Source: Anthopleura xanthogrammica
Taxonomy: Eukaryota; Cnidaria; Anthozoa; Actiniaria; Actiniidae
Assembly (NCBI GenBank): GCA_964019055.1
Contig: OZ025223.1
Span: forward strand, 1,858,625-1,922,624
Reading direction: 5' to 3'
DNA: 64,000 nucleotides
A model generated the notes under the pieces. The model did no database searches, was not told the DNA's origin, and saw only the letters and a program-made list of their open reading frames with translations. Positions 32,141 through 63,549 of the stretch are shown here, piece by piece (the first letter of the stretch is position 1; every line of letters begins with the position of its first letter). The position numbers and the translations under genes are program-made.

Positions 32141-35100
32141 TCCCATCATCATCATCATCATCATCATGACCATCAATGTCATAATCAACATCATCACAAT
32201 CATTTTCAACATTATACTTAATCATTGTCATCATAATCATTGACACCACCATATCATCATCATCATCAACATGACCCAACATGACCATCAATGTCATTTT
32301 TAACCTCATCACAATAATTTCAAACATCTCAATTGGCCTTTTCTGAATTTAAAAAAACAGAATGCATTATGGTCTAGCTTGGGTACAAACAACACCATAT
32401 AAGGTATGGTGAACAAAAGAATCTTTGTACGGAAGCCAGACCACAATGCACCATGTTCGCTATCTCAGAAAAGGTCTATTGTCATCATCATCACCATCAT
32501 TGTCATCATCATGAACATTATCACTCACCAGACATCAACAACATTCATCATCATTATTACCACCACTATCCATCATTGCCAGGCCTAAAAAATAATGGCC
32601 AGTCATCTGACAATGTCTGGCCAGAATTAGAACTGGTCCATTCAAATCTTTGCATTGATGGGTCATTTTGAGACCAGTAATGTTGAGAAAGAATTAAGGT
32701 ATAACTGAGCTTAAACTTATTTGGCTGGTCATGATGACCAGCAACTCGATCTGTTGAAAGTTTGATTGATGGAAGCCAAGATGCTAGACGTCTAGAGTCA
32801 GCTAGGTCATAGAAATATGAAAAATGCTATAATCATGCATAAAGCAGGCCTCAAGTGTACAATGTAAAAACATCGCACTTATAAAATTCCTTTTTCCTTT
32901 AAACAGGGTGGTTGTTGATGAAGATTCTTCTTACCAGAATATCAAGATTTTACACTCCAAAAATTTTGGCAACATTCTTGTGCTGGATAATGATGTCAGT
33001 AAGTGTCATATGTTATACAGCGATAAAGATGACAACCAGTCATCTGACAATGTGTGGCCAGAATTAGAACTTGTCCGGTCAAATATTTGCCTTCCAAGTC
33101 ATTTTGACCAGTAACGTTGAGCCAGAAACGGGGTATGACCAAGCTAAAACTAATTTGGCCGGTCATCATGACTGGCGACTGACCAGCCGTTATTTCAAGC
33201 CCTGCCAGCTGGTCTAAGAAAAACTGTTATCCAATCAGAACGAGAAAATTCTCAAAACTGAGTTGTCATGCTTAGTACCCTGGCTTCTTGAAATTATAAA
33301 TTTCCAGGCCATCAAATGAAAAAAAGTAATGTTGCTTGCATGATAACATTGACGCAATAATTAAGGGGTTTGATATTTTTATTGCAATGTTTTTATTTTT
33401 CACTTGTGCCAGAAAGCAACACATCTCAATTTTGAAGTGATGTCATTTCTACGTCAATATTTCAGATCAGCTGATCTACTTATTCTGCTTTCTTGATTGG
33501 CTCTAATTTTCATTCTCTATCATGATTGGTTATTTATAAAAGCAGTCCGAGTTGGAATGTCCACCCAGTAATAGACCACTTTAGCTTGGGTATAATGTTT
33601 TGCCCATTTCAGACCACGTGTCATTCCCTTGAGTATCATTTCTTTGTTTGGATGCAAATGAAACAAAGAATCCTATTCTCAAAGGAATGACACATGGTCT
33701 GAAATGGGCAAAACTAAACCCAAGCTAAAGAAGTCTATTATGGCAATTCTCAATATTCTGTGAACTTAGACATTTCAAAGACTTGTTGTGAAATTGTTTT
33801 TTGCTGTTGTCAATGAAGAGTTATCAGTCGGTACCTTTCATATTTTTGACTTGCGACCGTGAAAAACCAAATTTCAGCAGAGAACTTGCAACTACTGAGT
33901 TAATTCATAGAATATTGAGACATAGTTTTGTTTTGTTATTTCAAGACTTGGCTGAGAGTGACATATCCTACACAAAAGCCATCACTGGTCAAGGCCAAGA
34001 AGATTACAAAGACAAGGCTGTGTTGATTCTTGGAGGCGGGGATGGTGGAATACTTCATGAACTGCTGAAGCAGAGTCCCAAGCAAATTGTTATGGCAGAA
34101 ATATCTTTTTTATACTCCTCTGTAATTTTTTTGTCTTTTTCTTGTACTGTTGGAGCCCAATAAGTGATTGACACAGTAGAATTCCAGGGCAGAAATAACA
34201 GGGGTTTGAGATATCCAGGATAAAATTGTTACTACCATATTTACTTGATTAAGCACTGCAGCATAAATTTTTAGTCTTTCAATTACAGCACTTATTCACG
34301 GGAAGTACTTATTTGAGGTGGCACTCTTGGATATTTTGCTCTCATATGCGGCACTTAATCAAGGATGGTGGTTAAACAAGTAAATACAGTATTGTTACAC
34401 TGGCACATGTGACCCCAAGTTTGAGATGGCAAAATATCCAGATGCTTAAAATAGGGACTGTTTATTATTTATTAGGGAGGGGATATTTTTCCAATCTGTT
34501 TATTGTAAAAGTGCTGTATGACTTGATTTTTCTAATGACCTCCTTCCCTAATTCCCACTGTCTCCCCTCCCCAGTAAAACGTGAACTGTCCCCAATGGGC
34601 TCCACTGTAATTGCTTCCCCTGCTAGCAGAGGAGGCTGTGTTCTAAATGAGAGTTGATTGATGTTCACTATGAAGTGTTTGTTAACTATCAGTCCTTAAC
34701 AGCTTTGAACATAGATGAAATAGTTGTTAACCATGCTAAAAAACATTTGAGAGGAATCTGTGGGGATTCTCTGGATTCTTTGAAAGGAGATAATTATGAG
34801 GTGAGGTGTAAGTGACTCGGAGACAATCAGTCAGTAAGTCAGTCATTTTTTATGATTGTTGGTCAGTCAGTCATTTCAAAAGTCAGTTGGTCATTTGTTC
34901 CTCCATTTGTTCTGGCAGTCACTTGGTCATTCAGGGGGCTTGTTGGTCAGCCAGTCGGTCAGTTGGTCGGTCGGTTGGTCAGTCCGTCAGTCGGTCAGTT
35001 AGTCAGCCATTCATTCAAACATTCATTTATTGTTAACATTTTTTGACCAGGTTATCATTGGTGACTGTTTAAAAGTTATGAATCAGTACATCAGTGAAGG

Positions 35101-38382: not shown

Positions 38383-41300
38383 ATGGCGGAGACTAAAGAT
38401 TCGGATCTTGATATAAAAGTCCTTGAAACGTCCGAAATTCGGGCTGACACTGACTCTCCATCGAAACACCCAGAGATCCCAGACGGTGGATGGGGGTGGT
38501 TTGTATGTGCAGGGACATTTATTGTAAATTTTATCGTATTTGGTATCCATAATTCTTTTGGAGTCGTTTATGCTAACCTGTTAGACGAACTAAAGATGGG
38601 AAAAGCTGAAACTGGTGAGTTTTTAATTCTTAATTTGAACTTGAAAAACATTGCTCACTTTGACAACAACGCCGGCTTGTAGACCGGCTTGTACAAATTA
38701 CAAACAGAACGTGCCGGTCTTGGACGAAAAATGTCAAAATTTAAAGCAATATCTTGCGACATTTAGATGTTAGGAAAAAAAACAAAATCTGGCATTCACA
38801 CATCATCTAATAGGATAAATAACTGAACGCAACAACATATCTGAAGTGTATTATATTTTAAGATATAATTACTATCGTAGAAGTTTGATGGAATATGACG
38901 ATTTCGAAATTAATAACTAAAAAAAATATTATGACTCGAACTTTTATCCGTTATTATTTTTTAAATTTCATGTTTTCAGCTTATTTTTCCTCTCAAAACG
39001 AATACAACTTTTTGCCTATTTTTCTACAACCTCTTGAAGTCGCTTATAAAATTACTTATGTAACGACAGACATTTTGCAGCAAACTTCGTAATTCTATTT
39101 TATTTTTTTTGCAGACATTTGTTTATAAATAATTAATAGTTATTTTTCTTACTTCTAAAGCCTAACTTCAAGGTGAAATAGTTCTTTTTGAACCACTTTA
39201 TAGTAAATATTAAATTTACTATAATATGCCACGAGTTACTCGGACTTTGAACTTTATAGTTTTCAAGGGATTAGTTATGCACGAGTTTGAACAAAGACAA
39301 AATACACTAAAGCTCGTTTTGAATTTTTTCGAGACTTTTTTCGTAAATAACATATCCGTAAAAAGAGTTATTTTACAAGCATTTTGACATGCAAGGTGTT
39401 GAGAACGCCAAATGTCAGGAAATGCTCAATGGACGCGCTCATTTTAGCGGCGAAAAATGGCTTCGCGCCAAAATGAATTTAAGCGCCAAAACTATCATTT
39501 TCTTCGTTGGTCCAGTATCAGACTCAAAGTCTATAATTTTCAGTACTGTTTCGGTGGCTTTTCTTGTAATTATCAAAGCCTTTCAATGAAAATGGGTTAA
39601 AACTTGACTTGCATAAAGTAACATTTTTTGAAACTCACAATCCATTCCTAAGGCAACTCGGTACTTGTACGTTGTACAATTAAAGTACAAAAATGCAGGG
39701 CAGGGGAGGGGAGGAGTAGAGGAATTATTATGATTTGGCTGTTGTATCACAGCGTGGGACACTCACAACAGAGCTAAGCTGCAATCACTGTGTAATGCAA
39801 CAGAATGTTAAGTTTTGTAACCGAGACTGTTTTGACCAGTTAAGTTCTACTTCAAGTGTAGTTTCCTGTTCCACAAACCTCTTTAGAATTAACCTATAAA
39901 CTACCAAGGTTAGTTTGTCCAGGTACGCGATGATCCCTCGCGTGCCGCCGTAGTCTTAGGCCCGGTTTAGACGTCGAATTTCACATGAAAACGTGCCGAA
40001 TCTTTATTGAAGTCAAACAATAGGTTTTGCTCATTTGCATTAGATTCGGCAAATGTGAAATTTGACGTCTAAACCGGGCCTTACAACTAGCTCTCGAAAA
40101 AACCCTCGAAGCACAGGAGAGAACCAACAAACAACTCTACTCACATACGACACCGAGCCAGGCGGGACTCGAACCCGGCCGCCTTGGTGAGAGGCGACAC
40201 ATTAGCAGCGCACGCCATCCGTGCTTTCCTAACAGGAGATGACAGGAGAGGACAGGGGAGAAGAGCAGAGGAGAGGAGAGGAGTCAAGAGGGAAGGTAGC
40301 CAGCAAAACAGCTGGACCTTCATGCTAACGCCAGCATTCTTCTAAAATTCTTTTTTTCGCTCCGTCTCTCCACAGCGTGGATCGGAGCGATGGCAATGGG
40401 TCTCAACTTCATGTTCGGGCCAATAACCAGCCTTCTTTGTGATCGCTACAGCTGTCGTGCCGTTGCTTTTGTCGGCGCTCTTCTTTCAGTTCTTGGCCTC
40501 TTCTTGACTTCATTCGTCCAAGAACCCACCAAGATGTACGTAACTTATGGACTTCTATTCGGTATTGGGTCGAGTTTATCCTTCGTTTCTTCGATTGTAG
40601 TGCTTGGAGATTATTTTCACAAACGCTTAGCTCTTGTCAACGGTCTAGCGACATCGGGTAGTGGTGTAGGATCGTTAGTCACTGGCCCTGTTATCAACTA
40701 TCTTCTGTCTACGACTGGTTGGCAGAATTCAATGAGGATACTGAGTGCTTTTGCTGTGTTGTTGTGGGTGGCAGCGTTCTTGTATCGACCGAACACGAGA
40801 ATTGATCGAACTAGAAAACAGAGAGCTAAACTGTTTGATTCCAGGATATGGAAGAACAAGGCTTATGTATTTTGGGTGGCAAGCGTGGCCATATTTCAGT
40901 TTGGATATTTGATCCCGTTTGTTCATTTGGTAAGTACTAGTCAGTGTCAACTATTACCATTAATAGTAAACGTGTCATTCCCTTGAGTATTACTTCTTTC
41001 TTTACCTAATGTTTGCCCATTTCAGTCCACGTGACATTCGCTTGAGTATGATTCTTTTTGACTTGGGGCATTCCAATCTTAGACCACGTGTCGTTCCCTT
41101 GAGTGTTATTTCTTTCTTTAGCTTTAATTGTTTGACGTTTTTCATTTCAGACCAAGTGTCTCTCCGTTTAGCATTATTTCTTCTTTAACTAAGCATGTTT
41201 ACCCATTTCAGACCACATGGCATTCTCGTGAGCAATAGCTTGCGCTAGCTAGTGTTCCATTCACTCCCCTTTAACCAAGCAGACTCGTATCGAATAGACC

Positions 41301-43029: not shown

Positions 43030-43380
43030 AAGTCTGGTTAATTAAATTTTCCCCTGACTTTGTTCTTTAACTTTTTATAAATTGGCTAGTGGTGTGTGAA
43101 GGGTTGATAAGTTTACTTGAATGCAATAGTATTTTTTATATTTTGCTATTTAAGAATTTAATTATTATATAGGTTAAAATGTTAAAATATCTTTTAAAAT
43201 CGTTATAAATTTATTTAAAAAAATTTTCGTAAAAAATAATCGTCTTCACGAAAACAATTAAAATAATGAATAAAAATGTTAATCCATCAAGTTGCTGCTG
43301 CTGTTGTTTTTGTTGCTGCTGCTGTTACTGTTAATTGCGAACTTTTTGTTCCTTTAGACTCCTTTCAAGTGCCGTCAAAG

Positions 43381-43462
43381 CAGCTCAATTTGGAGGACAA
43401 AACAGAAGAATTTCAATCTCCTGAGAATTGGAAACCTGTTGTTTTGTCCTCCAAATTGAGCT
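43381..43462. mobile_element. Foldback MITE (CAGCTCAATTTGGAGGAC family), copy 2
   Basis: 82-bp hairpin: CAGCTCAATTTGGAGGACAA ... TTGTCCTCCAAATTGAGCT. It lies in a 103-aa open frame with a hydrophobic start, which is therefore probably not a gene. Confidence 0.8.
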
Positions 43463-45073
43463 ACACATGCTGCGAGTGCAAGGGGATTATTCTCAGTGAC
43501 CCAAAGTATTTCGAAATCCCTTCACGTTTTACGGCTCTTCTAGGTCCTCTTTATAAGCGTTGGTCCATTAAGTTTGTATGTAAGTAGGTGGGGGCCGAAC
43601 CCCCTAGCTCAATCCATTTACTAACCGAACGTAACGCACAAACACTGAATACTAGTTTTGTCCCTCGAGGCTGTTACTTGATGAAAAGGACGTGCATTAT
43701 CAAAGGTAAGTGATATAACGTCACTCTAGTTTTGTCAAACTATGTCGAAAGGAGAAAAAAATCTGAAGATGATACTCGATGAACGATTCAACGGAGCCGT
43801 GGTTTCTCATTTCTCGTTATTCTTCCTTTTTTCCCCTCTTTAAAAGTTCGCTTCGGGTCATTTTTAGTATCATTAGAATTACCGCTGTCCAGCATCATGT
43901 CCGTAATGACTATCGTCTTAACGTTATTGACATTTTTATGATTTATGGTGTTATAAGCTTAGATAATGAATAAGAAAATCCTACCAAATTAGCTTAATGT
44001 TGCTATATTTTTGTAAGTTTGCACGTGTTTTTGCCCGATTATGCCACGTATCATTCCCTTGAGTATTATTCCTTTGTTTGCTCTTAATTTTTTTGAAGAA
44101 TCCCTAATATCGATAAAACTCGAATTTTATTCGCAAGAGGTTTATTTAAAATTGAAAAACGCTCAAAATAAAGTGATTTCTACGGTATATCAGTTCCATT
44201 TAAGTCTATCTGTACGACGACGAATTCTCGGTACAGCGTATTCCGTGTGAAAATACACGAGAGGCCCAGGTTTTTTTCCAAATACGCAGCGTGACTCGCA
44301 TTCAGGGTTGTGATTGGACGTTTGAGTTTTCGTATACTTTGATTGGTTCATAGGGAAGCCATTTAAGGAACTGGGAGAAACTAATTAAATTTTCCAATTT
44401 AATATTCAAAATGGCGTCTGTTCACATTTGTGTCGGAGAATTATGTCGGAGGATGATTGGTCGTTGCGGATACGAAATGACGTCATATTTTTTAACCAAT
44501 CACATTTTCATTAAAATATGATTGGTTGAGAGAAATCTAGAACTTTCGTTTCCAGAGTCCGCACTTCAAGCCTGAGGCATCAATTAAGGCCATGGTTAAA
44601 AATTCACTTGGCTAAAAATTCTCCTCGTCTCACAGTTCTTGGTCTTGACAGTTGACTGACTTTCATGTGTTTTCGTCAATTTTAACCCCTTAATTTATGT
44701 CAAGATATATTAATCCAACATAAGTTACTAGTTATTTCGTACTTTAGAACCTGACAAACGCTTGGATACTAGAAAGATTTACGAGACAAATTTCCGGCAT
44801 CTATAAAAAATGTTTTGCAAATTTAGAATTTTTGATTTTCATAGTTTTCGCCTTGAATTGACAACTGGTGTGATAGTCGGATTCCTCTGTTTAGATTCTT
44901 CGCGTGGGTTGTGTAAAAGATATTCTTTATTTTCAGTCATTTCACTGAGATAATCTTGTAATGTTTGGTGGTATCCTGCTGTTATCCGCTACTCTAAGAG
45001 TTTAAATTGTCACTTGTCGACAAATAAGACATAAAAACTCCATGAAAATAAGAATAAAAGCAAAAAAAAAAAA

Positions 45074-47340: not shown

Positions 47341-48079
47341 TTTTGACTTGCTATGAGATTGCCGCTCGAGGCGACCTTAAAATTTTTACTAAAGATTAGC
47401 GGAACGGCTATTTTCGAACGCATTTTTTTTGTTTGTCCTAATATCGAAGGAATGGTGAGATTTACTAAGTACTTTATAGCCCACTGCTGGTCTTAAGTCA
47501 TCGAAAGAGTGGATATAAATAGAGTAAAATACTAGGTAGTTAAGTTCAGTATTGAAGGACCTGTTACCTTATTGTGTTCTCCAAGCACTTGAAAAGCACT
47601 CTCAATCAATATATATCAATATATATCAAGATATCAAGATAGATAAGCAAACAAGACAAGGTAAGAACCCGCCTCAAAATTCCTTTTTCAAGAGTTAAGA
47701 TTTTCAAAATTTTCCAAGTTGTATAATCGAATAAAACAATAAATACTCGCGGGCAACGGAAATTTTTGAAAACGTTTTTACGTAACAACGTGAGTTCGTG
47801 AAAATGCTTGAAAATGCGTGAAAATTCACAAGTTGAATACTGGAAATCTTTAAAAGCCACTAAGAAAAAATTCGGGATAAAAGGGCGTGCTCTTCAAAAA
47901 CAAGTTTTCTTTCGAGAAAAGAAAAACAAGAAAGAACACGAAAATGAGTTCAGAATACGTTTTTGGAACCAATGATAATTCAATGATCGTATAAATAGGA
48001 TAGCTCAAGTTCCTCTGGTCAGGAGTTAGCGAGGAGTAACTGAACGCAAAACCACTGAAGAGTCTCTCGAAGTAACATC

Positions 48080-48260
48080 ACATGTGAGTAGAGTTTGTTG
48101 GGTCTCTCCCTTGATTCAAGTATTTTTCTCAGTCCTGCTTCTCCGCATTTCTCCTTGAAAAAAACTTAGCACGCTAAATTCCTATTCGATCTGTAGTTAG
48201 CCGTGACCCGACTTTGTTCAGCTCAAGAGGTTGTTTCAGGGTTCAATCTTTATTTTCCGT
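48080..48260 (+). mobile_element. SINE remnant with one tail unit
   Basis: Body motif CACATGTGAGTAGAGTTTGT and one degraded 57-bp tail unit (TCAAGAGGTTGTTTCAGGGT). The tRNA-like head is missing. Confidence 0.6.
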
Positions 48261-48489: not shown

Positions 48490-50356
48490 ATGGCAACACC
48501 ATTAATCACCATAGTTACTCTGTTGGTATTTTTATCAAGTTTACAAACAACTGGTAGGTGATGCAATAGTTTAAATAAATCGTTCTTTGGGTTTCCTGTG
48601 TGGGGGAGATTTTCACGAGTATGGGTTTCCTGTGGTTAGCTTCGTTACCAGTCTCTTCAGTGCTCAGTGTTCTGAGATACAGGAACCCCATTTCTTAGAT
48701 TATATTCGGTTATTTTTTATTGTCTTCAGAGTCCAGAAATACTCCTTTTCAAAATGAAAATTCTATAAGACAAGAACAGAGGGGATATCAGCCTGATGAG
48801 GAAGAATGCGTTCTACGCCGGCCAGACGGAACTTGTCACAACCAATGGCGAGTAGGAAAGAAAGGAAAAAATGGATTGGACATGCTGCAGAGAAGACAAG
48901 CGAAATGCAATAGAAAAATTTCGCCTAACTGTAGGGTAATGATAGGCAAAAAAAGGTAGGTAATATAGTCATGAAGAATTATCGGCTACTGCCACCACAG
49001 GGAGCCCACCACTATCACTGCCATTACCACTACCACTGCTACTCACTACCACCGCTTCTCCTGCTCCTACTACCACTACTACCACCACCACCACTATCAC
49101 TGCCATTACCACTACCACTCCTCCTCCTACTACCACTGCTACTCACTACCACTACCGCTACCACTCCTCCTCCTACTACAACTGCTACTCACTACCACTG
49201 CCATTACTACTACCACTACCACTGCTACTCACTACCACCACTTCTCCTGCTCCTACTACCACTACCACAACCACAACCACTATCACTGCCATTACCACTA
49301 CCACTCCTCCTCCTACTACCACTGCTACTCACTACCACCACTTCTTCTGCTCCTACTACCACTACCACCACTATCACTGCCATTACTACTACCACTACCA
49401 CTCCTCCTCCTACTACCACTGCTACTCACTACCACTGCCATTACTACTACCACTACCACTCCTCCTACTACTACCACTGCTACTCACTACCACTGCCATT
49501 ACTACTACCACTACCACTCCTCCTCCTACTACCACTGCTACTCACTACCACCACTTCTTCTGCTCCTACTACCACTACCACCACTATCACTGCCATTACT
49601 ACTACCACTACCACTCCTCCTCCTACTACCACTGCTACTCACTACCACTGCCATTACTACTACCACTACCACTCCTCCTACTACTACCACTGCTACTCAC
49701 TACCACCACTTCTCCTGCTCCTACTACCACTACCACCACCACCACCACCACAACCACTATCACTGCCATTACCACTACCACTCCTCCTCCTACTACCACT
49801 GCTACTCACTACCACCCCTTCTCCTGCTCCTACTACCACTACCACCACTATCACTGCCATTACTACTACCACTCCTCCTCCTACTACCACTGCTACTCAC
49901 TACCACCCCTTCTTCTGCTCCTACTACCACTACCACCACTATCACTGCCATTACCACTACCACTACCGCTCCTCCTACTACTACCACTGCTACTCACTAC
50001 CACCACTTCTCCTGCTCCTACTACCACTACCACCACCACAACCACAACCACTTTCACTGCCATTACCACTACCACTCCTCCTCCTACTACCACTGCTACT
50101 CACTACCACCCCTTCTTCTGCTCCTACTACCACTACCACCACTATCACTGCCATTACTACTACCACTACCACTCCTCCTACTACTACCACTGCTACTCAC
50201 TACCACCACTTCTCCTGCTCCTACTACCACCACCACCACCACTTTCACTGCCATTACCACTACCACTACCACTACCGCTACCACTCCTCCTACTACTACA
50301 ACTGCTACTCACTACCACCACTTCTCCTGCTCCTACTACCAATACCACCACCACCA

Positions 50357-50391
<35 letters not shown>

Positions 50392-52014
50392 ACTATTACT
50401 ACTACAACAACAACGACGGGTACTATCACTACCACCACTACTGCCCTTACGACCACTCCTCCTCCTACTATCACTACTACTACTACTGTACTGCCACTAG
50501 CAGTACAGTAGCAGCACTAGCTGCTGCTACTACTACTATTATTAGCAGTTCAACTTCATTGTGATCGAACCTATACCTATGAACTCCTTCGAGCCATTTC
50601 CCTCTAAGGATTCATTTTGTCTTAGGGCTCCAAATAACATAGATTGTAGTCAGTTAGAAGGTCGACATAATCTCCTCTGCAGAAATGAATACTACAAACG
50701 ACTGAACCCTAACACGCCATGCGACAAGCGATCTGAAGAATGCGAGAATCTATACATGTACAAAACAGCTTTGAAAAGTGCAGACTTGGAGACGAAAGAA
50801 ACCCAGGGATGTGACTTGAAATCTCCCCTCTGCTACGTGCCGTTCCCTGGGAAACGAAAACCAAAACACAAAGATTTGAAAAAAAGAGTTAGTCCTGATG
50901 AATCTGGCTCAAGGTTTTCACTGCTCCCCGAAACAAGTGAATCAGAAGTGGAAGAAGAAGAAGAAGTTGAACATAAGGATAGCGTTACTGTGACAGAGAA
51001 CGATCTCTTGGGGGAGTTACTCGTCGCGCGTGGCACGACAAAGCTGCCATACGAACTGAGCGAGAGTGGAGAACAGAGAGTGGACGCGGTACCTACTGTC
51101 GCCGAGGACAGCGACAATTCCAAACCTACTTGTGATCCGAAGAGAGACTTTCAATGTCGCTATAGAGTATTTGGTGGAAAAAGAAACCAGGTAAAAACAA
51201 TGTACGGTAATATTTCAAATTATAAAATGACTGTTATAAATTTCTGATTGGTTGAGGGCGCGTGCATTATGAGAGCACACAGCACACGCGCGCATTTTTA
51301 TTAAATTAAAGATGAGCTTGTTGGGCTTTTTGAATTTATACAGCACTTGGGGACTGTCAGCACACTTGAGAAGTGTTGAGAAGCTCTCCGCTACACGTCG
51401 TGCTTCTTCTAATACTTCTCTCGTGTTCTGCCAATCCCTGCGTGCTTTACAACTGCACACAGCACACTCGCGCGTTTTCTATTTATTCATGCCAGTTCAT
51501 CAATCACTCATCACTTCGATCAACACCGCGCACACTAATATATGTTAATAAAATAGAAACCGCGCGCTCGCTGTTTGCAGTCACATAACAAGCGGTTAAT
51601 ACAGCAGTTTCCATATGACTTTGTAGAACGTACGGCGGGCACGCACCGCGCCTTGCCGTGACCGTGTCAGTGGTGTATAGAAAGGCATTTAAAATTCGGT
51701 GCCGTGTTCGCGTCGTGCCTAACCAAGCCGTGCCGTGACTTTTCACACTCGCGGTGCAGCACAGAAGCAAGGTTTTTATTTCTTTTATAAAATACAAGTA
51801 AAACAGCCGGATACGATTGATAAAAATGCGCGCGCATGCTATGTGCGCCGATAAAAATGCGCGCGCATGCTATGTGCGCCAACAAAAAGAACACTCGCCA
51901 ACAACCAATCAGAAAGCGAGATTTATGATGGTTATTTTATAACACATCCCTTAATGCAGTAATCTCCCTTTTTCTTCAAAGATCTTCAACAAGCCAACAT
52001 ACCTAAAGTCGTAA
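48490..52014 (+). CDS. Secreted precursor with six Cys-pair segments and GKR sites (candidate neuropeptide precursor)
   Basis: No family recognised. Four exons (48490-48553, 48730-48955, 50626-51190, 51982-52014) join in phase to 295 aa. Exon 1 is a signal peptide (MATPLITIVTLLVFLSSLQ). All 12 cysteines form six close pairs: 48/57, 81/89, 104/115, 129/136, 159/166 and 266/274. Four pairs are followed 4-6 residues later by Gly plus a basic pair: HNQWRVGKK, RVMIGKKR, YVPFPGKRK and RYRVFGGKR. A fifth is followed by EYYKR. Gly-Lys-Arg is the usual amidation and cleavage signal. An acidic run (EEE before Cys48; about 202-212) also fits a prohormone. The exon 2/3 splice completes GKKR, supporting the model. 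Inferred role: precursor of several disulfide-looped amidated peptides. Alternative: a Cys-rich extracellular protein. Exon 4 is the least certain; reading through exon 3 would stop at 51247. Confidence 0.7.
48996..50545. repeat. TACCAC/TCCTCC minisatellite in the precursor intron
   Basis: About 1.5 kb of imperfect CTACTACCACTGCTACTCAC, TACCACCACTTCTCCTGCTC and ATCACTGCCATTAC modules, almost lacking G on the plus strand. A 509-aa frame of His/Tyr/Leu/Pro and many reverse frames cross it; all are low-complexity. It fills intron 2 of the precursor gene. Confidence 0.92.
51219..51943. mobile_element. Foldback element inside intron 3 of the precursor
   Basis: Ends are inverted: TTATAAATTTCTGATTGGTTG at the left, CAACCAATCAGAAAGCGAG and GGTTATTTTATAAC at the right. 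Inner motifs GCGCGCATTTTTAT and ATAAAAATGCGCGCGCATGC also face each other, the latter as a 31-bp direct dimer near 51826-51880. It occupies nearly the whole intron. Confidence 0.7.
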
Positions 52015-53373
52015 AAATACAACTGAGAGTCAAGCTCCACGCAAGATATCATCACCGAAGCAACAGAATAAATAGAAAATATGAATTAAATTTACTTAAG
52101 ATTTCAATTGCAAATTATATATATTTTCACGGTTAATCAAGAGAGAGAAAAAAAATAGCTGAAAAAAAAGGGGTAAGGGAAAGGGATGTGGAATCGCTTA
52201 GAGCATCGCGCAGACTTAGTAAGACCTATTTTTGTTGGGCTAATGACGTCATGACCGCCATATTGGATGACTCCAACAGAAAACAATCTTCCGCCAATAT
52301 GGCTGCATAGAACATAGAAACCTGTTTTTGTTTGGGCTTGTGTTGTCATGACCGCCATGTTGGATGACTTTAACAGAAAACATTATTCCGCCAATATGGC
52401 TGCATAGAACATAGAAACCTATTTTTGTTTTGGGGTGTGACGTCATTACCGCCATTTTGGATAAATGAATTGTGGCTGCCATGCTTTGGTTTAGTTTGAT
52501 TTCAAAACTCTTTTGATTACGAAACTCTCTGAAGCTCAAAGAAAGACTGGGCACGAATGGATCTCCTCATGGAATTCTGGGGTACCTTAGATCTTTTATG
52601 AGCTATATAAGTGCAAATTAGAAGTACTCTGGAATACCTTGGGAATAAAGGTTCTGGTAATTCGTACCCAAACTAGACCACAATGCATCGCGTTCCTTAT
52701 CTCAAGAAGCTTCGAGGTAGTTAAGTCTTCATGCTGGATAATTGAAGCAGCTTTTAACGTTAAACGTAGCTAAAACATCGGAAGTACACTTAAAGATTTT
52801 ATCGTTTTTATCTTATTGGGTTTCCTGTGGTTACATCATTTCTTTCGCTTCTGCGCAAAACTCAATTTCCCCTTTATTAGAAGCGATAAAAATTAATATT
52901 TATTAAGATAATATTTATAATTTATCAAGATATGCCTTAAATGTAACGTGAGAAGAGCTAAATGGAAATAACTGAGCGGAATTAAATTGAGATTGAAAGT
53001 TTGGAGCACGTTCGATATAATATCCATTTTTCGTCCGAACATTTCATTGGCTTTTTTGCTCAATCTTTGTCTACCAATATTCCAATGGGTTTCTTGTCCA
53101 TCCCCCCAGCATTTGAATGGCTTTTATGTTCATCCTCTGTCTAACAACATTTCAATAGCTTTTCAATCATCTTTGCCATTATGAAGACTTCAATAGCTTC
53201 TTGGCCATTTCCTACTAATTTCAGTGGCTTTTTCATCCACGTATTTCACCAACATTCAAAAACACTCTAAGTGGCTTTAAGATGAATATCTTGATCAAAA
53301 CACTACATTGGGTTTTCCTATCTTATCAGTCTATCTACATCATTCCTACCGTGACGGTCAACAACATCACGAG
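52015..53373. other. Convergent flank between the precursor gene and TRAPPC10
   Basis: No gene seen. A tandem repeat lies at about 52240-52465, and a MITE arm fragment (ACTAGACCACAATGCATCG) at about 52670. A loose series of TTTCAATGGCTTTT-like motifs occurs at about 53040-53290. Confidence 0.6.
52240..52465. repeat. About 105-bp tandem repeat, 2+ copies
   Basis: Unit with GTCATGACCGCCATATTGGA, AACAGAAAACA, TTCCGCCAATATGGCTGCAT and AGAACATAGAAACC; two full copies and a partial third. Inner CCATATTGG and CCAATATGG are inverted. Confidence 0.85.
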
Positions 53374-56300
53374 TCATGAACATTCCTTGTTGCTTGGCAA
53401 CACAAGCACTTGAAGGGCTTGCGTGGCATTGTAAACCTGTCCACACTTAAATGGCTTCACAACGGGCGGTTCCTTCGGCGAAATCTTTGCGCTCGCCGTT
53501 TGTCCCGAGATTTTCTCCGAATCTTTATTATCCCCAGCCTCTGGTAACTCTTTTCCAGAATCCTTATCAGCAGTTCCTGATTTTTTCTCGCCCCCTTTCT
53601 CCTCATTATGCCATTCATACGATTTTAACTTTACGTCCGGCAACGGCAAATACCCTCCCGTCTGAGGTATGACGTCAAGGGTGACGTCACATGTCGCCAT
53701 GAAAACCATCGGCATGGCAACTACACCACTATTCTTGCCCGAAATCATCCACAAGTTAGTGTCTACGGCGACTTCGTATAAGAGTTCACGTTGTTGGTTC
53801 CCCGTGGGGGTAGGGGGTGAGAACACATGGTCGTTTACGTGGGTATTCATGATGGTAATGTTTAGTTTACATAGAGTTCCCTTGTGTAGTTTTTTGTCGG
53901 ATCCTGGGGCTTCTATTCTTGACTGGATCGTAAATAAGGTCTGAGTTGTTTAAAAAAAGAGGTATTTTAAAAGCAAGATTCCCTACTCCAAAAGATGTGC
54001 GCACGGCTTTGCCTGGGAGAAGATCAAGCTTTGCGAATCAGTTAGTTTCCGCATCAAAACGAAGCGAATATAAATTAAATTTGCTCGGAATATTCAATTA
54101 TTTTGAAGAAACTTTTGAAGAAACTGCCATTAATTAAAAAGTTTTTCTGTTTACCTCAGTACACTTAGATGATGCTCTAGTGTTAGGATAACCAAAGCTG
54201 GTCTCAGCTTATGGTGAGGGCATTTTTTCTCATTTTATTTTTTGTAAAATGACATGAATCACGTGTTTTTAATAAGGAGTTGGTGACGTAACATGACGTA
54301 ACTATGACAACGGTTTTTGACATAAAACATTTTTTTTAGCCATCAAAATAATCATTTTTTAAATTATTTTTTTAAATGAAAAGAAAGTAAGAAAAAAGAA
54401 AGAAAGAAAGAAAGAAAAAAAAAGCGATAAAAAGGAATAAACAAAAAAGAAATATAACGGAGGAAGTAAGTAATAATGGATGAAAGAGGGAAAAATTCAT
54501 TCACAGAAAGTAAAAGGAAGACACACAAAATCATAAATTTGTCACTTACGTTTGTATTTTCCCACTGAAAATCATAAAGGTAGCAGCAAAATTCATCCAA
54601 ATCATCAGCCTTCTGGGGAAAAACACACAAAGGCATTAAAAACTGGAATGAGACTTTCTAAAATTTCTTTTTAGACCTCAACGTACCTTGCTTCTGAAAT
54701 TCAACTTCAGTTGGCAGTCGAGAAGCTGTGGTAAAGATTCTGAAATTGAAATAAAAGAAGAAGAAAAAAGAGAATGAATTTTTTTTTCTTCAAATAACTC
54801 GGTCTAGTAAACCTTACTAATCTTACTAATTTTAAAATGCAAATTTTTAACGTAAATGTACATTTACATAAGACAGAGTTATAAATTTTGAGATATTTTA
54901 GCTAATTCGTTGAGTTTGTGGGACATAGCAACGGTAACTAAGGTAAAGGGAACCATGAATTTGGCTTGGAAGAGAGAATGGGATGTATCTAGGATATAAA
55001 TGGATTCAATGGTTGCTGTTAGTAAGGGGTGTAGGATGGAGGGGTGGGGTGGGGTGGGATGAGGGGTTGCTGCTACCTTCACTGTTTTCCACTTTCCACA
55101 GTAAAGACATCTCTTGTCCTTCACATAGACTCTAAAAAAAAGAAATAAAAAGATTAAGGTACAAATTACGTACAAAATACTTCAGTTATAGTTCTCTGTT
55201 GCTCAGGGTTGGCCTCAATCTCGTATTGAATTCTTTTGAATATTCATGTGTTCCAATGAAGGCCCGTGGGATTTCAAAGTGTCTGTATTGTTAAAGTTGT
55301 GCATTCTTAACTTTACCGTTGGTATTTGTGAACATTATGACACTGAAATGAGGCTAACCCTGTGTAAATAAGTCTGTAATCAAGAAACATAGCGGTATAA
55401 GGACGATTCGAAAAAGGTATAATCAGTGCAAACTGCAAATTTGCAAAAAGTTCGTAAAGCAATAAATTGTAAATAATGTACTTACAAATGAAGCGTCGTT
55501 ATGGATTGGACTAGTCTTAACCGCTGGACAATCGGCTATCGCGAATGCGGGCGCATCTACGTGTAGAGGCATGGGGCTTCGTCCAGATATTACTGTTTGA
55601 ACGAAACGACTAAAGAAAGAAAGGAAATGAAAAACAATTGGAAATGGCAATGAATAATATGATACACGACAACTTGCTAGAAGAGATGACTACACAGAGA
55701 TTGCTTGCATTCACTTGACGTCATTTCCTGTATCTCAAACGGAAGTCACCCGATGAGAATGCAAAAGGCTTGCGCATGCGTAGAACGCTTGTTCACGCCA
55801 TTAAAAAAGAATTGAAAGAAATGAATGGAATGAATGAAAAATAACTATGAAAGGAAACATTTTTTTGTATCAAAAATGGCTATATTTTTTTCACCCGCGA
55901 GACATTCTCCCGCCTTTTTTTCTATGTTTTCTCGTCACCACTTTCCATACATCGGTTCACTGCCCAAACACAAACCATCAAGCGAGGCTTCAAGGTAGTT
56001 TCAAAGGATTATTCAAATTTGAACTTTGCAGCCTCGACTGACTGCTTTGTATTTGACCAGTGAATCGATGTGTGATTGTATCGACTGACTGCTTTGTGTT
56101 TGACCAGTGAACCGATGTATGGAAAGTACCGCATCAATCTCGTACCCAAGTTAGTGAGATATCAAGTGCTTTACCTCTCATTAGAGCAGTGTACGATGTG
56201 CCTGACAGTGAAGGGCCGTCGAAACGAGCAAACAATCTCCGAGAACGAACATGGCTGAAGCCATTTGCAAGCGAACATCATCTGATGCTCCGTAATCTCC

Positions 56301-58334
56301 TCCATCTGACTCTGCTTACTCAACGGCGCCTGCACCACTAGATCGAACTCCATCTTCTCATAAGGTCCACAACGAGGTAGCGTCACTATAGCAACGGCGG
56401 ACGTGACGTCATCGCCCTCGTGGAACGATGGGAAGGTGACCTTATAAGGGTGCTCGGTTTTGGGACTGGTGTCTAGGTTGGATGAGATGTAGGCTGTCCC
56501 GGATGTGATCTGGTGGAACTGGAGATTGGTCTTTGAGGTTATTTCTAGTGTGGAGTCTGGGTCTATGGATCCTGGACCGACGGAGATGGTGATGTGTATG
56601 CGCTGGGATAGACCGGCTAGAAGATCTAAAGAGAATAAAAACAGCTTTAAGGACGTTCGCGGGCAAAAGCATTTCCCATAATTTTTTCTTCAAATTTCGC
56701 ATGGTGAAATAAGATCATAGAAGTTCCACGAGTAAATACAAAATAGGGCGCAAAAGGGGTTTGCTGGCCGTCAGAGCTTTGAGCGGGGAAAGGGGAGGGG
56801 GAGACCAAAGTCTTCAAGGCCATGCTGTCGTAGGGTACGAAAAAATGCGTCCAAAGATTCACTTCACCAGACCACTATGATATCACATGTGAAGCAGAAA
56901 TTCGAGGCATTTCTATATTGCCCCCATGTTGGAGGACAACCCTATGAAGAAACCCATTGGCAAGTACTGTGTTTCATTCATCCTCCAACACTTGACAGCA
57001 ATGCCATCATCTGCATATTGAACACAAGTTGATATCTGAAAGATGAGCTCAAAGGATGTCATACCTTTTCCATCACTAGACATGGTGATTTTAGGGGGGT
57101 CTGATACCACGGAGAATACGCTTGCCTCCCTGGAGAGGGTCATCTGCGGCCACACGAAGTTCAGCTGGCCGATCTCTACACAGAGCTGCTTCAAGAAGTA
57201 CTGGCCGTCCTCTGGGACCTGATACCAAAAATATAATTTTCTAGATAGGAAATTTTAAGTTCCGAAAATGTTTACTCTCCAATGTCACATTTAATGGTCA
57301 CGTAATATGTTTGGGTCACGTGATTGCATTCCATGTTACCCCATAATCGTATTGGTCACGTCACATTTAATGTTCACGTAATATGTTTGGGTCACATGAT
57401 ACCATTCCAAGTCACCCCATTATCGTATTGGTCACGTCATAATTATTGGTCACGCGATATATTTTGGTCACGTGATTGCATTCCATGTCACCCCATAATC
57501 GCATGAGTCACGCCACATTTAATGGTCACGTAATATGTTTTGGTCACGCAATCCATAGCAACCAATGTCACTCATAATCTTTTAGGTCATGTGACAATGA
57601 CTTCTAGAGTAGATTTTGTATGACGTGACCGTGACCGTGACCGTGACAGCTGCTAAATTATGGTAACAGAGAAATCGAAACAGGAATATTACCTGGACGG
57701 TAAGAGTGTAATGATTGATACCAAACAGTAAAGGCACATTACAGCACTCCAGAGTTGCATCAGACTCATCCCTCGCCATGGGAGGGTCCTCTGTACGAAC
57801 AGACTGGGCTGAGTCAACCCTTGTTAGATGAGGGGGGTCGAGTCCGTCATCATTGGATCCTACATCACTAGCATCTAACAAATATAAGCGATTATTAATA
57901 ATAACCTTTATTTATTAGAATGGGCATTACGTGTTAGGTTGTTAGGTTTCTCCATTGATTTAAGGGTTTTCTCCGGCTCGGTTCTCCGGTTTTCCTCAAT
58001 TCACAAAACCCAGAGGTTGTTTCAGGGTTCAATCTGTGAGTTAGCCATGCCCTGACTTAGATCAGCCCAGAGGTTGTTTCAGGGTTCAATCTGTGAGTTA
58101 GCCATGCCCTGACTTAGATCAGCCCAGAGGTTGTTTCAGTCGGATACCACTGGTCTCTTTACCTTCACTGGTCTTATCAGAGAGGTCCTCTTCAGACATT
58201 GCTGCAGAGGATATAACGTTTTCCTGGACGGTAGGAGACATGGCCCTGAGAGATCGCTTGCTCGAATGAAGACTACTGCCTCGCTTGAGGTCTGATGAAT
58301 CAAGATTGAAACTGACACGACGACATGTCACTTC
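53374..58334 (-). CDS. TRAPPC10: TRAPPC10, C-terminal part (5' partial)
   Basis: A subunit of the TRAPPII tethering complex, which activates Rab GTPases at the Golgi. Nine exons (58334-58163, 57874-57693, 57218-57065, 56625-56175, 55609-55486, 55131-55077, 54739-54687, 54612-54550, 53940-53374) join in phase to a 606-codon C-terminal half. The N-terminal about 650 residues of a typical about 1,250-aa protein are missing. Diagnostic segments: QLCVEIGQLNFVWPQMTLS, DLLAGLSQRIHITISVGPG, then LWMISGKNSGVVAMPM, GYLPLPDVKLKSYEW and, near the end, CGQVYNATQALQVLVLPS. These match the conserved C-terminus known for this family. The region before the end is a charged insert (Lys/Glu/Ser-rich). The preceding part is Ser-rich. 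Upstream exons would have to lie right of 58334, probably beyond the window. Confidence 0.9.
56035..56120. repeat. About 45-bp direct duplication
   Basis: CGACTGACTGCTTTGT(A/G)TTTGACCAGTGAA(T/C)CGATGT occurs twice in a TRAPPC10 intron, and its end (CATACATCGGTTCACTG) is also inverted near 55945. Confidence 0.75.
57296..57599. repeat. 76-bp tandem repeat, four units, GTCACGT-rich
   Basis: Units start at 57296, 57372, 57448 and 57524, exactly 76 bp apart. Each has GGTCACGTAATATGTTT, GGTCACGTGATTGCATTCCA and CCCCATAATCG. It lies in a TRAPPC10 intron and gives about three GTCAC motifs per unit. Confidence 0.93.
57930..58140 (+). mobile_element. SINE 3' part with two to three tail units
   Basis: Body GTTAGGTTTCTCCATTGATT plus 57-bp units (CAGAGGTTGTTTCAGGGTTC, AATCTGTGAGTTAGCCATGC). 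It ends about 25 bp from a TRAPPC10 donor. Confidence 0.75.
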
Positions 58335-60410: not shown

Positions 60411-63400
60411 TTATACCATGCATGTACAGCTGTTAGCATATACGTCTATAGCTTCACAGAAGGTTTTTTTCCTCGATAACGGACCACTTGTCGTCAGATG
60501 TAGCTCATTGTAGATTTCTTTGAGGACCGCCAGTTTCAGTGACACAAGCTTACTGCTTTTCACAAGCTCACATATATTGAAGGTGCCCACGGTGATCGGA
60601 TGGTTTGGTCTGTTCATGTCGTTCATCACTAGGTTTATAAGACTGTATAAAGCTTCTTCCGACTCTGCAGCTTCAATGTCTTCCTCTGGGACTTCCTCAG
60701 CATCGATACCCTTCTTACGCTGCGCAGCTTTCAGGCGCGAGAACAGGCTGCTGATTTGCTTTGATGTCCTCCACTCTTCGGGCTTAAAGGTGGGCCGCCC
60801 GTCTTCATTTCTGAGAGACTTCATCTCCCTCGCTAACTGCACAGGATCGGATTTGATTCCAGTTCTTATACCGTCAACAAACTTCTTCTTGAGGAAGGCG
60901 TTGACCTTGTCAGTCATTCTAGAGGAAGTTTTGGTTGTCTTAAGAGCCCATCCTGTCGGTCTGTGAGTTGCTTTGGTAGCACTACTGTTATCCTTAGCTT
61001 GAGGTACCCGCCCTGAGGTCGATGGCATATCTGGCGCAAACGTTACCCCTGTAACTACTCCCGCCCATTTCCTTCTAATGCGGTCATACATAGACTCACA
61101 GTCTGCCTCAAGACGATGCTTCCCCGTGTCCATGTGGGCGTCTGCCTCCGACTGGGTTTTGAACGTCAGGACGCATCCAGTTTCCTGGCAAGCGTAGATC
61201 TCAGACTTATGTCTGACACTCTCTCCCACTCTCCCTTTATTGGGGGCTTGACCAAAGGGCTGAATCACCTTTAATCCAGTTTCTCTTTGTGGTGCAATTG
61301 TGAGGTCGCTGTAAGCAATGAGACGTCCAGGACCGATGTCATACGCCTTCCATACGCGAATACCAGTTTTCTCGAACTGGAAATTGTTCAGCACACTAAT
61401 GCCTGGTATCTTATTACCTTTGTTTGTCTCTTTTGTTGTGTCCAACTCAACAACTGCAGCCCTGCACCCTTTGATGCCCGCATGTGATTCTAGAGCTGCC
61501 TTCATATCTTCAGCTGTGAGGACATTGTGCTTCTCATTGACCCACCGCTTTATGTGTGCCTTCATCGAAGCAGCCTTCCTGTCACAAATATCCTTGCCAG
61601 CCTGAGGGTCAGAGAAATCGTATCGCACTGGCTTGACACCGGTTCTCTCCCCTACTTCTCTTAGACTTAGCAAAAGAGGGCCATTGTGATAACACCCTGC
61701 ATTATCAGATCTGAGATAGGCTTGTGTCACAGCTGGATATTCCTGCTTGACTTTATGCAGCAAGTCCTCTATTATGGACAGTACTGCAAAGCTGTTTTGG
61801 GTGCAGCTGTTGAGGATATGGACAAAACACTCCACTTCATATTTACTGTCTGTGGCTGCTGCAGTAATCACAGCACTGATGTGCCAGCTCTTGCCTCTCT
61901 TTCCAAAAAAGTCACTCATTTGTTCTCTAAATTGAACAGGCAAGAACTTCATTGCCCAGTCCATGATCAAAAGGCACGACTTCTTATTTAGCTGCTTTAG
62001 GGCATGTTGCTTGGCTTCTTCCTGGTTAATTGTTCGTAGCAAATGCGCTTTCCACGCCTTTATGTTACGCACACTCTCTTTGTACTCAAACTTAAATCTA
62101 GCCCTCTCCTCTTCATCGATGTCCACATTAGCTAGAATCTCTGCTATATCATCTAGTACACTCTCTAGCCCTTCACAGCGTTCGCATTCATAGGTGTGTT
62201 TATGGTCACATTTGCGTTTGAACTCTTTGGCTTTATCACTTAGTGCATGAACACTGCAGTGATCACTACATTGTTCGTCTCTTCCGACATGGGTCTTGAA
62301 ATCTGTCTTAATATAGCGTTTTGCATCCCTTAGTTGCTTCTGTAGGTTAGTTACGTTGATGCCCTGACCTGCCAGTTTATCCAACAGAGACAAGACGTCA
62401 TCAAACGCCTCGGAACCCTCAGCAGTGGTACTGTCAAGTCCTTGAAGGGATTTTTGCATGGAAGCTGAACAAACTTCAATCATCCGGTAGAGAGAACGCT
62501 TACCCGCAGGCTCGACTTCTTGTTCTTCACAATATTCTAAATATTGACTTATAATGCGTGAAGGGATGACAGTCCTTATCACTGCTGGTATAGTGATTTT
62601 CTCTCCCGAGTCAAGCTTCATCGTTTTTGTCCCGAAAGCCATATCCTGGAGAAATTCTGGCTTGGAAATAAATTCAATAAAGTGGTCCACTTTTTCGCGG
62701 TCAATTTTTGTGCGGTAATTAGGCATTTCAGGGACTGGCTGACCTCTGCCAGCCTCGGTTGCATGCTGACGAGCTTGGTCAATGCGCCATTTTGAGAGTC
62801 CAGGAATCATTTCTTGCAAATCAGCTTTTGAAAAATCGTCTGCAAAGAGGGAAAGGATCTGTCGCTTAGTCCTCCAATGACCTGTTTGCTCATATGTTTT
62901 AACCAAAACACCCACCAGACTAGAGTTGGGATCAAAGCGCTTGCGTTTTCCTTGATTTTCGCCTTCTTCTTCAAAAAGTGCTTCAGTTTGTAGTGCCTTC
63001 CAGAACACCTCCTCTTGGCCAGGAGTGATAACAGACAGGGAGGTAGCTATGGACTCCTTGGCTTTGCGGATGTAATATCGTTGCTGAGTGTCAGACACAT
63101 CTTCCCACGCGGTATTCAGGGTGGACATCAGGGGGCTGTACCGCCCTTCTGAAATACTGGTAGTGGATTCGTTTAATTTTTGTCTTTTGCTGTTTTGCTC
63201 TTCCATCTCATCAAGCCATATACTAATCTCTTCTTCTGGTATCGAGGACTGAGATGACTGGGATTGTGAAGAGAGTGTCTGTGACTCTCCACCGGTACTT
63301 GCGACCTCCATAGTCTCCGTGGCTGGCAATGAACTGTCTTGAGAGATATTATGGGCTTCAGAATCTTTCTGCGTGAGGTCTACACTGATAGAGGTGTCTA

Positions 63401-63549
63401 AGTCAAGAGGCTAAAGATGTAAAGAGATGGATTAGCTAATTACTGACAAAATAATCTTTAGTTTCTGTCTCTTTATTGGCTAACCTGCTTCCCTGTCTTA
63501 TAGTTTGCATGGGCTTTGTAGTGGTCTCCACGGCAAGTTGCACACACCG
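60411..63549 (-). CDS. Integrase-like (DDE/RNase H-fold) zinc-finger protein, 5' partial
   Basis: Two exons seen: 63549-63485 ([20 protein letters not shown], zinc-finger-like) and 63410-60411, a long exon of 999 codons plus stop. They join in phase; the start is outside the window. Residues below are counted from the Leu codon at 63329. A Ser/Glu-rich start is followed by a helical region, then a Cys/His cluster ([22 protein letters not shown], about 353-385). An RNase H-like core follows: [10 protein letters not shown] (Asp457), [11 protein letters not shown] (Asp542) and [18 protein letters not shown] (Asp580 or Asp583). The Asp542-Asp580 gap of 37 residues is typical of DDE/D integrases. 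A C2H2 finger lies at about 714-738 and a helical C-terminus at about 920-965. I recall similar unnamed proteins in aquatic animals. No terminal repeats were found, so domestication is possible. The frame is intact. Confidence 0.72.

Follow-up and report, generated by a model that had tools for sequence, protein, structure and literature searches.

Gene structure and surroundings

A gene of four exons occupies 48490-52014 on the + strand of the 64,000-nt window (the whole stretch of Anthopleura xanthogrammica DNA analyzed here), and its joined frame gives an 888-nt coding sequence and a protein of 295 aa. Introns 1-3 of this precursor gene have GT-AG borders and are in phases 1, 2, and 0. Exon 1 (48490..48553) encodes a signal-like N terminus, MATPLITIVTLLVFLSSLQTT, where the best 11-residue hydropathy windows cover residues 3-18; this is the one strong hydrophobic stretch, with a best window mean of 3.09 versus 1.06 elsewhere. 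According to the spliced-frame translation, exon 2 (48730..48955) carries a pro-segment and the first two of six cysteine-pair units. Exon 3 (50626..51190) holds units 3-6 and an acidic spacer, and exon 4 (51982..52014) adds a short C-terminal tail and the stop codon, with a similar short tail in Actinia (5/12 residues identical). Upstream on the same strand are a TATA-box-like TATAAAT (47990..47996, about 500 nt 5' of the ATG), a second one at 47514, and, as judged by eye, a possible 5' untranslated exon (about 48022-48083) whose donor GTGAGT at 48084 would be joined to 48472. A candidate polyadenylation signal, recognized by its AATAAA motif, follows at 52067..52072 (+).

Two introns contain repeats. 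A tandem-repeat array of ACCACT/TAC units with a 97-nt higher-order period (49008..50487, +) occupies most of intron 2, and three open frames of >500 aa in this 1.5-kb array are probably repeat artefacts. Intron 3 contains, at 51267-51880, inverted arms of 38 nt (82%) as well as a 31-nt tandem duplication without mismatch, GATAAAAATGCGCGCGCATGCTATGTGCGCC, which together are possibly a small mobile element.

We consider it very improbable that the gene has decayed or that its joined frame is artefactual. The long tandem repeat filling intron 2 and a partial copy of the gene elsewhere in the genome would suit such a reading, whereas the splice sites are canonical and in phase, and both relatives found speak against it. 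The closest, LOC116303164 of Actinia tenebrosa, is an uncharacterized full-length protein of 289 aa that is 68% identical end to end; it was annotated independently, and it continues through the same three exon junctions. The second, P0002 (223 aa), is 93% identical over the exon 3 part, and its ends match introns 2 and 3 of the window, so that it was apparently translated from the genomic DNA of a close relative. The precursor gene is real and is conserved in one full-length relative. No other record at E<=10 was found in a set of 5.8 billion proteins with the whole protein, a profile, or Actinia residues 72-172 as query, in a search that relies on shared 5-residue words and whose profile version was restricted to the 8000 candidates with the most words in common; relatives in Exaiptasia or Nematostella may have escaped it.

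A Pfam scan of nine neighboring frames gave a match in 5/9: two frames of TRAPPC10 (53374-53949 and 56171-56689, both -), an MFS transporter (40300-40986, +), a spermine synthase domain (33792-34163, +), and an OATP transporter (6146-6619, -). Two further frames had no Pfam match at E<=0.01. One is an unbroken 999-aa frame at 60411-63410 (-), which could belong to a mobile element or be a domesticated gene, and the other, at 43270-43587 (+), begins MLIHQVAAAVVFVAAAVTVNCELF with a signal-like start and is a possible further secreted protein.

Cysteine pairs, Gly-basic sites, and their conservation

The sequence-only reading had described 12 cysteines that all fall in pairs, with Gly-Lys-Lys/Arg 4-6 residues after four of the pairs and Lys-Arg after a fifth, and the 295-aa translation confirmed this arrangement. 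The cysteines lie at residues 48, 57, 81, 89, 104, 115, 129, 136, 159, 166, 266, and 274, so that pairs 1-6 enclose 8, 7, 10, 6, 6, and 7 residues, respectively. Four G[KR][KR] sites occur in residues 23-295; they come 6, 4, 5, and 6 residues after the closing Cys of pairs 1, 2, 5, and 6, respectively, and Lys-Arg without Gly stands after pair 3. Among 200,000 shuffles of residues 23-295, all six gaps fell within 6-10 residues in 2e-5 and four or more G[KR][KR] sites arose in 0.00098, while three Cys-pair units with a site appeared in one shuffle and four in none; the pattern was defined post hoc from the sequence itself, so these figures overstate the surprise.

The units also resemble one another at the start of the loop, which reads C-x-x-[KR] in 5/6 and C-[DN]-x-[KR] in 4/6 in both the window protein and its Actinia homologue. 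The first five loop residues were more alike than when shuffled (P 0.001-0.012 across six sets of units, with two shuffles of 5,000 each, in a register chosen post hoc), and this likeness fits an origin of the units as old copies of one unit.

The Actinia homologue has the same architecture and carries no name or function. It keeps 12/12 cysteines and 4/4 of the amidation glycines versus 5/11 of the other glycines, a difference that is not significant alone (Fisher about 0.09, by hand), and 47/50 basic residues are still basic. P0002 likewise keeps all eight exon 3 cysteines and both Gly-basic sites. An orthologue that kept the cysteines and lost the Gly-basic sites, which the earlier reading had named as a refutation, was thus not seen. 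The Actinia protein has six G[KR][KR] sites, two of which are not behind a pair, and one of these two lies inside loop 3 (GRR). Identity to Actinia is 82/114 in the units (72%; single units 65-81%) and 72/113 in the spacers (64%; 50-85%), as summed by hand; that the units are barely more conserved than the spacers counts against the simplest hormone picture.

In a different reading, residues about 98-172 (six cysteines) or 48-172 (ten cysteines) would fold as a single secreted domain held by disulfides, with a disordered acidic tail and the last loop behind it, and the Gly-basic sites would be incidental in a Lys/Arg-rich protein. Units 3-5 and their linker match Actinia at 54/69 residues (78%, summed by hand), the linker KSADLETKETQ is unchanged in all three sequences (window, Actinia, and P0002), basic residues stay basic throughout, units 3 and 4 lack Gly, and dibasic pairs occur within loops, all of which would agree with a single fold. 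We nevertheless regard this reading as unlikely, since the Gly-basic sites are positioned after pairs and neither the whole protein nor its pieces gave a weighty match in Pfam, NCBIfam, or PDB. The partial gene copy, though maybe nonfunctional, also carries the exon 2 units as a short open frame.

In the domain searches, no Pfam or NCBIfam family scored above cut-off for the whole protein or pieces, and nothing in PDB was better than E 1.2. A known domain spanning several Cys pairs, the other refutation proposed earlier, was therefore not found in these three collections. We took the PDB match to AVR-Pik (E 1.2) as chance, and likewise the Pfam matches of precursor pieces, none of which reached the cut-off (best E 0.048). 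A GDNF-receptor-like Cys-rich domain, an idea formed by eye, gave no profile match at E<=10 with the whole protein or the 78-aa block, subject to the HMMER filters. Vasopressin/oxytocin peptides are marked by a Cys1-Cys6 ring and a neurophysin domain; we rejected this family because no Cys pair here encloses four residues and there was no Pfam match. We also rejected a ShK-type multi-peptide toxin precursor with six-Cys ShKT domains, since each unit has two cysteines and no ShKT Pfam match was obtained.

Predicted ring peptides and their relation to known cnidarian peptides

These sequence features suggest that the gene probably encodes a secreted multi-peptide precursor of the preprohormone type, from which amidated peptides with a single disulfide, three or four in number and differing from one another, would be released. 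After removal of the signal peptide, the precursor would be cut at the Gly-Lys-Lys/Arg sites, the basic residues trimmed, and the Gly converted to an amide. The products would measure about 15-22 residues, with a single Cys-Cys ring enclosing 6-8 residues and an amidated tail in each, and they may come from nerve or gland cells and signal through receptors. We infer secretion, cleavage, disulfide formation, amidation, and signaling of these products from the sequence.

Unit 1, CVLRRPDGTCHNQWRV-GKK (48807..48863, +), has the Actinia counterpart CAVRRPDGTCLNQWRVGKK and would give ..CVLRRPDGTCHNQWRV-NH2 with an uncertain N terminus. Unit 2, (RR)QAKCNRKISPNCRVMI-GKKR (48897..48955, +; its final codon is completed by exon 3), has a Gln after a dibasic site and corresponds to (KR)QAKCDRRMSMNCRMM-GRKR in Actinia; its predicted product is pGlu-AKCNRKISPNCRVMI-NH2. 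Unit 5, QGCDLKSPLCYVPFP-GKR(K) (50804..50857, +), has a loop identical in Actinia and would yield pGlu-GCDLKSPLCYVPFP-NH2. An acidic spacer (residues 176-261; 50861..51118, +) separates it from unit 6, SKPTCDPKRDFQCRYRVFG-GKR (51119..51184, +), where Lys-Arg lies in the loop and the product would be ..CDPKRDFQCRYRVFG-NH2, again with an uncertain N terminus; both assignments rest on the translation and the Actinia alignment. Computed monoisotopic neutral masses with one disulfide and an amide are 1839.938 for pGlu-AKCNRKISPNCRVMI-NH2 and 1645.763 for pGlu-GCDLKSPLCYVPFP-NH2, and, with guessed N termini, 2064.985 for ECVLRRPDGTCHNQWRV-NH2 (unit 1) and 2299.110 for SKPTCDPKRDFQCRYRVFG-NH2 (unit 6).

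The Nematostella peptidome, in the passages of PMC11087051 covered here, describes cleavage at KR, RR, and KK with Gln often as the first residue, and also cleavage before Gln when an acidic residue lies one or two positions upstream. Of the rules in these passages, the dibasic-Gln one fits unit 2 (RR|QAKC...) and the acidic-Gln one unit 5 (ET|QGC...), and both Gln residues are conserved in Actinia. The combination of Gln starts and Gly-basic ends leads us to predict ring peptides capped by pGlu and amide.

Some features run against this processing scheme. Dibasic pairs, which the sequence-only reading had not mentioned, lie within loops 1, 2, 4, and 6, and within loop 3 in Actinia, and if they were cut, the rings would open; these in-loop dibasics remain the main weak point of the processing reading. 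They account for 4/14 dibasic positions, versus about 16% of the mature protein lying in loops, which by hand estimate is no enrichment. Convertases often spare dibasic pairs that lie within a disulfide ring, and the in-loop RR-Pro of unit 1 should presumably resist cleavage. The predicted peptides also contain acidic residues, which counts against a neuropeptide identity inasmuch as such residues are described as unusual in cnidarian neuropeptides in the part of PMC7523074 covered. The two Actinia G[KR][KR] sites that are not behind a pair, and the occurrence of relatives in just two records, also count against the scheme. In its favor, if weakly, a probe of the genome for the amidating/monooxygenase domain PF03712 turned up two 29-residue matches (E 3.8e-4), with a stop in each frame.

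The earlier proposal of several looped, amidated peptides from one gene thus stands in part: four pairs have conserved Gly-basic sites, and no known domain was found in Pfam, NCBIfam, or PDB. The proposed six-unit scheme fares less well and appears too simple, with units 3 and 4 lacking Gly, dibasics inside loops 1, 2, 4, and 6, and spacers nearly as conserved as the units. Unit 3, DCSQLEGRHNLLCRNEYY-KR (50642..50701, +), and unit 4, LNPNTPCDKRSEECENLYMYK with Lys-Arg in its loop (50702..50764, +), both read from the translation, are better seen as nonamidated or linker sequence.

Among known peptides, a close likeness is to the cyclic FRamides of Scyphozoa and Cubozoa, such as CTSPMCWFRPamide and CKGQMCWFRamide, which passages of PMC6909153 report as absent from Staurozoa and Octocorallia. 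Like the gene here, the precursors in those passages are cnidarian and contain short, presumed cystine rings that are amidated and then followed by GR, GKR, GKKR, or GKRR; unlike it, they hold near-identical copies with four residues between the cysteines and a WFR tail. The peptides here differ from one another, and we rejected membership in this family (C-x4-C-W-F-R, amidated), since the loops hold 6-10 residues and there is no WFR. GPPCRWGCamide of the Clytia RWGamide precursors likewise has a presumed cystine ring and an amide, but in the passages of PMC8638164 covered it is one copy among linear RWGamides, with three residues between the cysteines and no sequence relation to the peptides here.

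In hexacorals, the part of PMC7523074 covered lists ten Actiniaria preprohormone families, including GRFamide, GLWamide, X1PRX2amide, and RPamide, which share with our precursor Gly-basic sites for amidation, starts at Gln, and (predicted here) cutting at acidic residues; their signal peptide would correspond to its signal-like N terminus. The script in that part sought at least three sites of GKR, GRR, or GR and, in front of them, three or more highly similar peptides, and the authors admit single-copy families through other searches. Our precursor has GKR twice, GR once (inside loop 3), and GKK twice, the last being absent from the literal list; with KK, KR, and RR counted as in PMC11087051, it has four Gly-dibasic sites, all kept in Actinia. 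The peptides before these sites have just the C-x-x-[KR] core in common and are not the highly similar set that the script demands. Having sought repeated similar peptides, the published script would probably miss single-copy, diverse ring peptides.

The covered part of PMC7523074 contains "cystine" once, in dismissing vasopressin, and has no "cystein," "disulfide," or "cyclic"; the passages of PMC9545775 on the topic hold no such anemone peptide, none of the terms cystein, disulfide, and cyclic occurs in the text covered of PMC6756747, and the neuropeptides named in the covered part of the Bunodosoma study PMC10058367 are Antho-RFamide and LWamide. LOC116303164 and four loop strings had no match in the literature searched, which comprised main texts. 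We found the precursor in none of these texts, although it may have an entry in a supplementary list (e.g., that of PMC11087051); that its family had not been recognized from sequence fits the literature examined.

We raise tentatively, and at well below even chances, that the gene represents an anemone-specific class of four different amide-capped cystine rings, two of them pGlu capped, built on a C-x-x-basic core and the first such in Hexacorallia, with the conserved in-ring dibasics as a possible switch. If so, the in-ring dibasic pair of three of the four amidated rings would allow a later cut to open the ring and end or change the signal. If real, the peptides would give the many orphan peptide receptors of anemones as many as four candidate ligands and would suggest that the known peptide catalogue is biased. 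Short ring peptides are easily made and suited to anemone receptor panels like that of PMC11087051.

A partial duplicate and the possibility of venom, mucus, or defense peptides

We searched the genome (289.8 Mb, 125 contigs; the window is C20:1858625-1922624) by scoring best candidates, and this yielded the precursor gene once in full and once in part. The partial duplicate comprises the upstream (promoter) region and exons 1-2, with its exons at C6:1347371-1347832 (-), and it reads a signal-like segment, units 1 and 2, GKKRKVN, and stop. Matching blocks are 90-92% identical, and identity is 95.3% in exon 1, 97.1% in intron 1, and 95.6% in exon 2. By hand count, 12 of the 13 exon substitutions fall in ten amino-acid-changing codons and one is synonymous (dN 0.050, dS 0.034, by NG86 only). 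These substitutions look like drift or divergence and offer no evidence of function.

The same processing could instead release venom, mucus, or defense peptides rather than neuropeptides, which we judge to be quite unlikely. Cnidaria do have multi-peptide toxin precursors, including one of 297 aa with five ShK-like peptides in the covered part of PMC11122761. Basic Cys-looped peptides would be suitable for such a role, relatives occur in few records (two), and the differences in the partial duplicate are mainly amino-acid changes, albeit over 13 substitutions only. In contrast, two cysteines per unit are unlike a multi-disulfide toxin scaffold, an N-terminal Gln with amidation is the usual neuropeptide pattern, and the best-candidate search found just one full copy in the genome.

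Two other genome matches were taken as chance. The C2 match (E 7.96; 28% over 102 aa), in a frame that we take to be pentraxin-like, retains the unit 4 pair and one unit 5 Cys and has no Gly-basic site, and the C21 match (E 0.037, Actinia query) has no Cys-pair pattern by eye.

Beside the duplicate, in the region C6:1342500-1350500, the scanned start of a reading frame about 1.9 kb downstream on the same strand was not recognized by Pfam or PDB. We take this frame to be CAPS/CADPS, which primes dense-core vesicles, and the same strand carries four MUN-domain matches beyond it (C6:1330434-1333927). A shared or fused transcript of the duplicate and the CAPS-like frame is conceivable.
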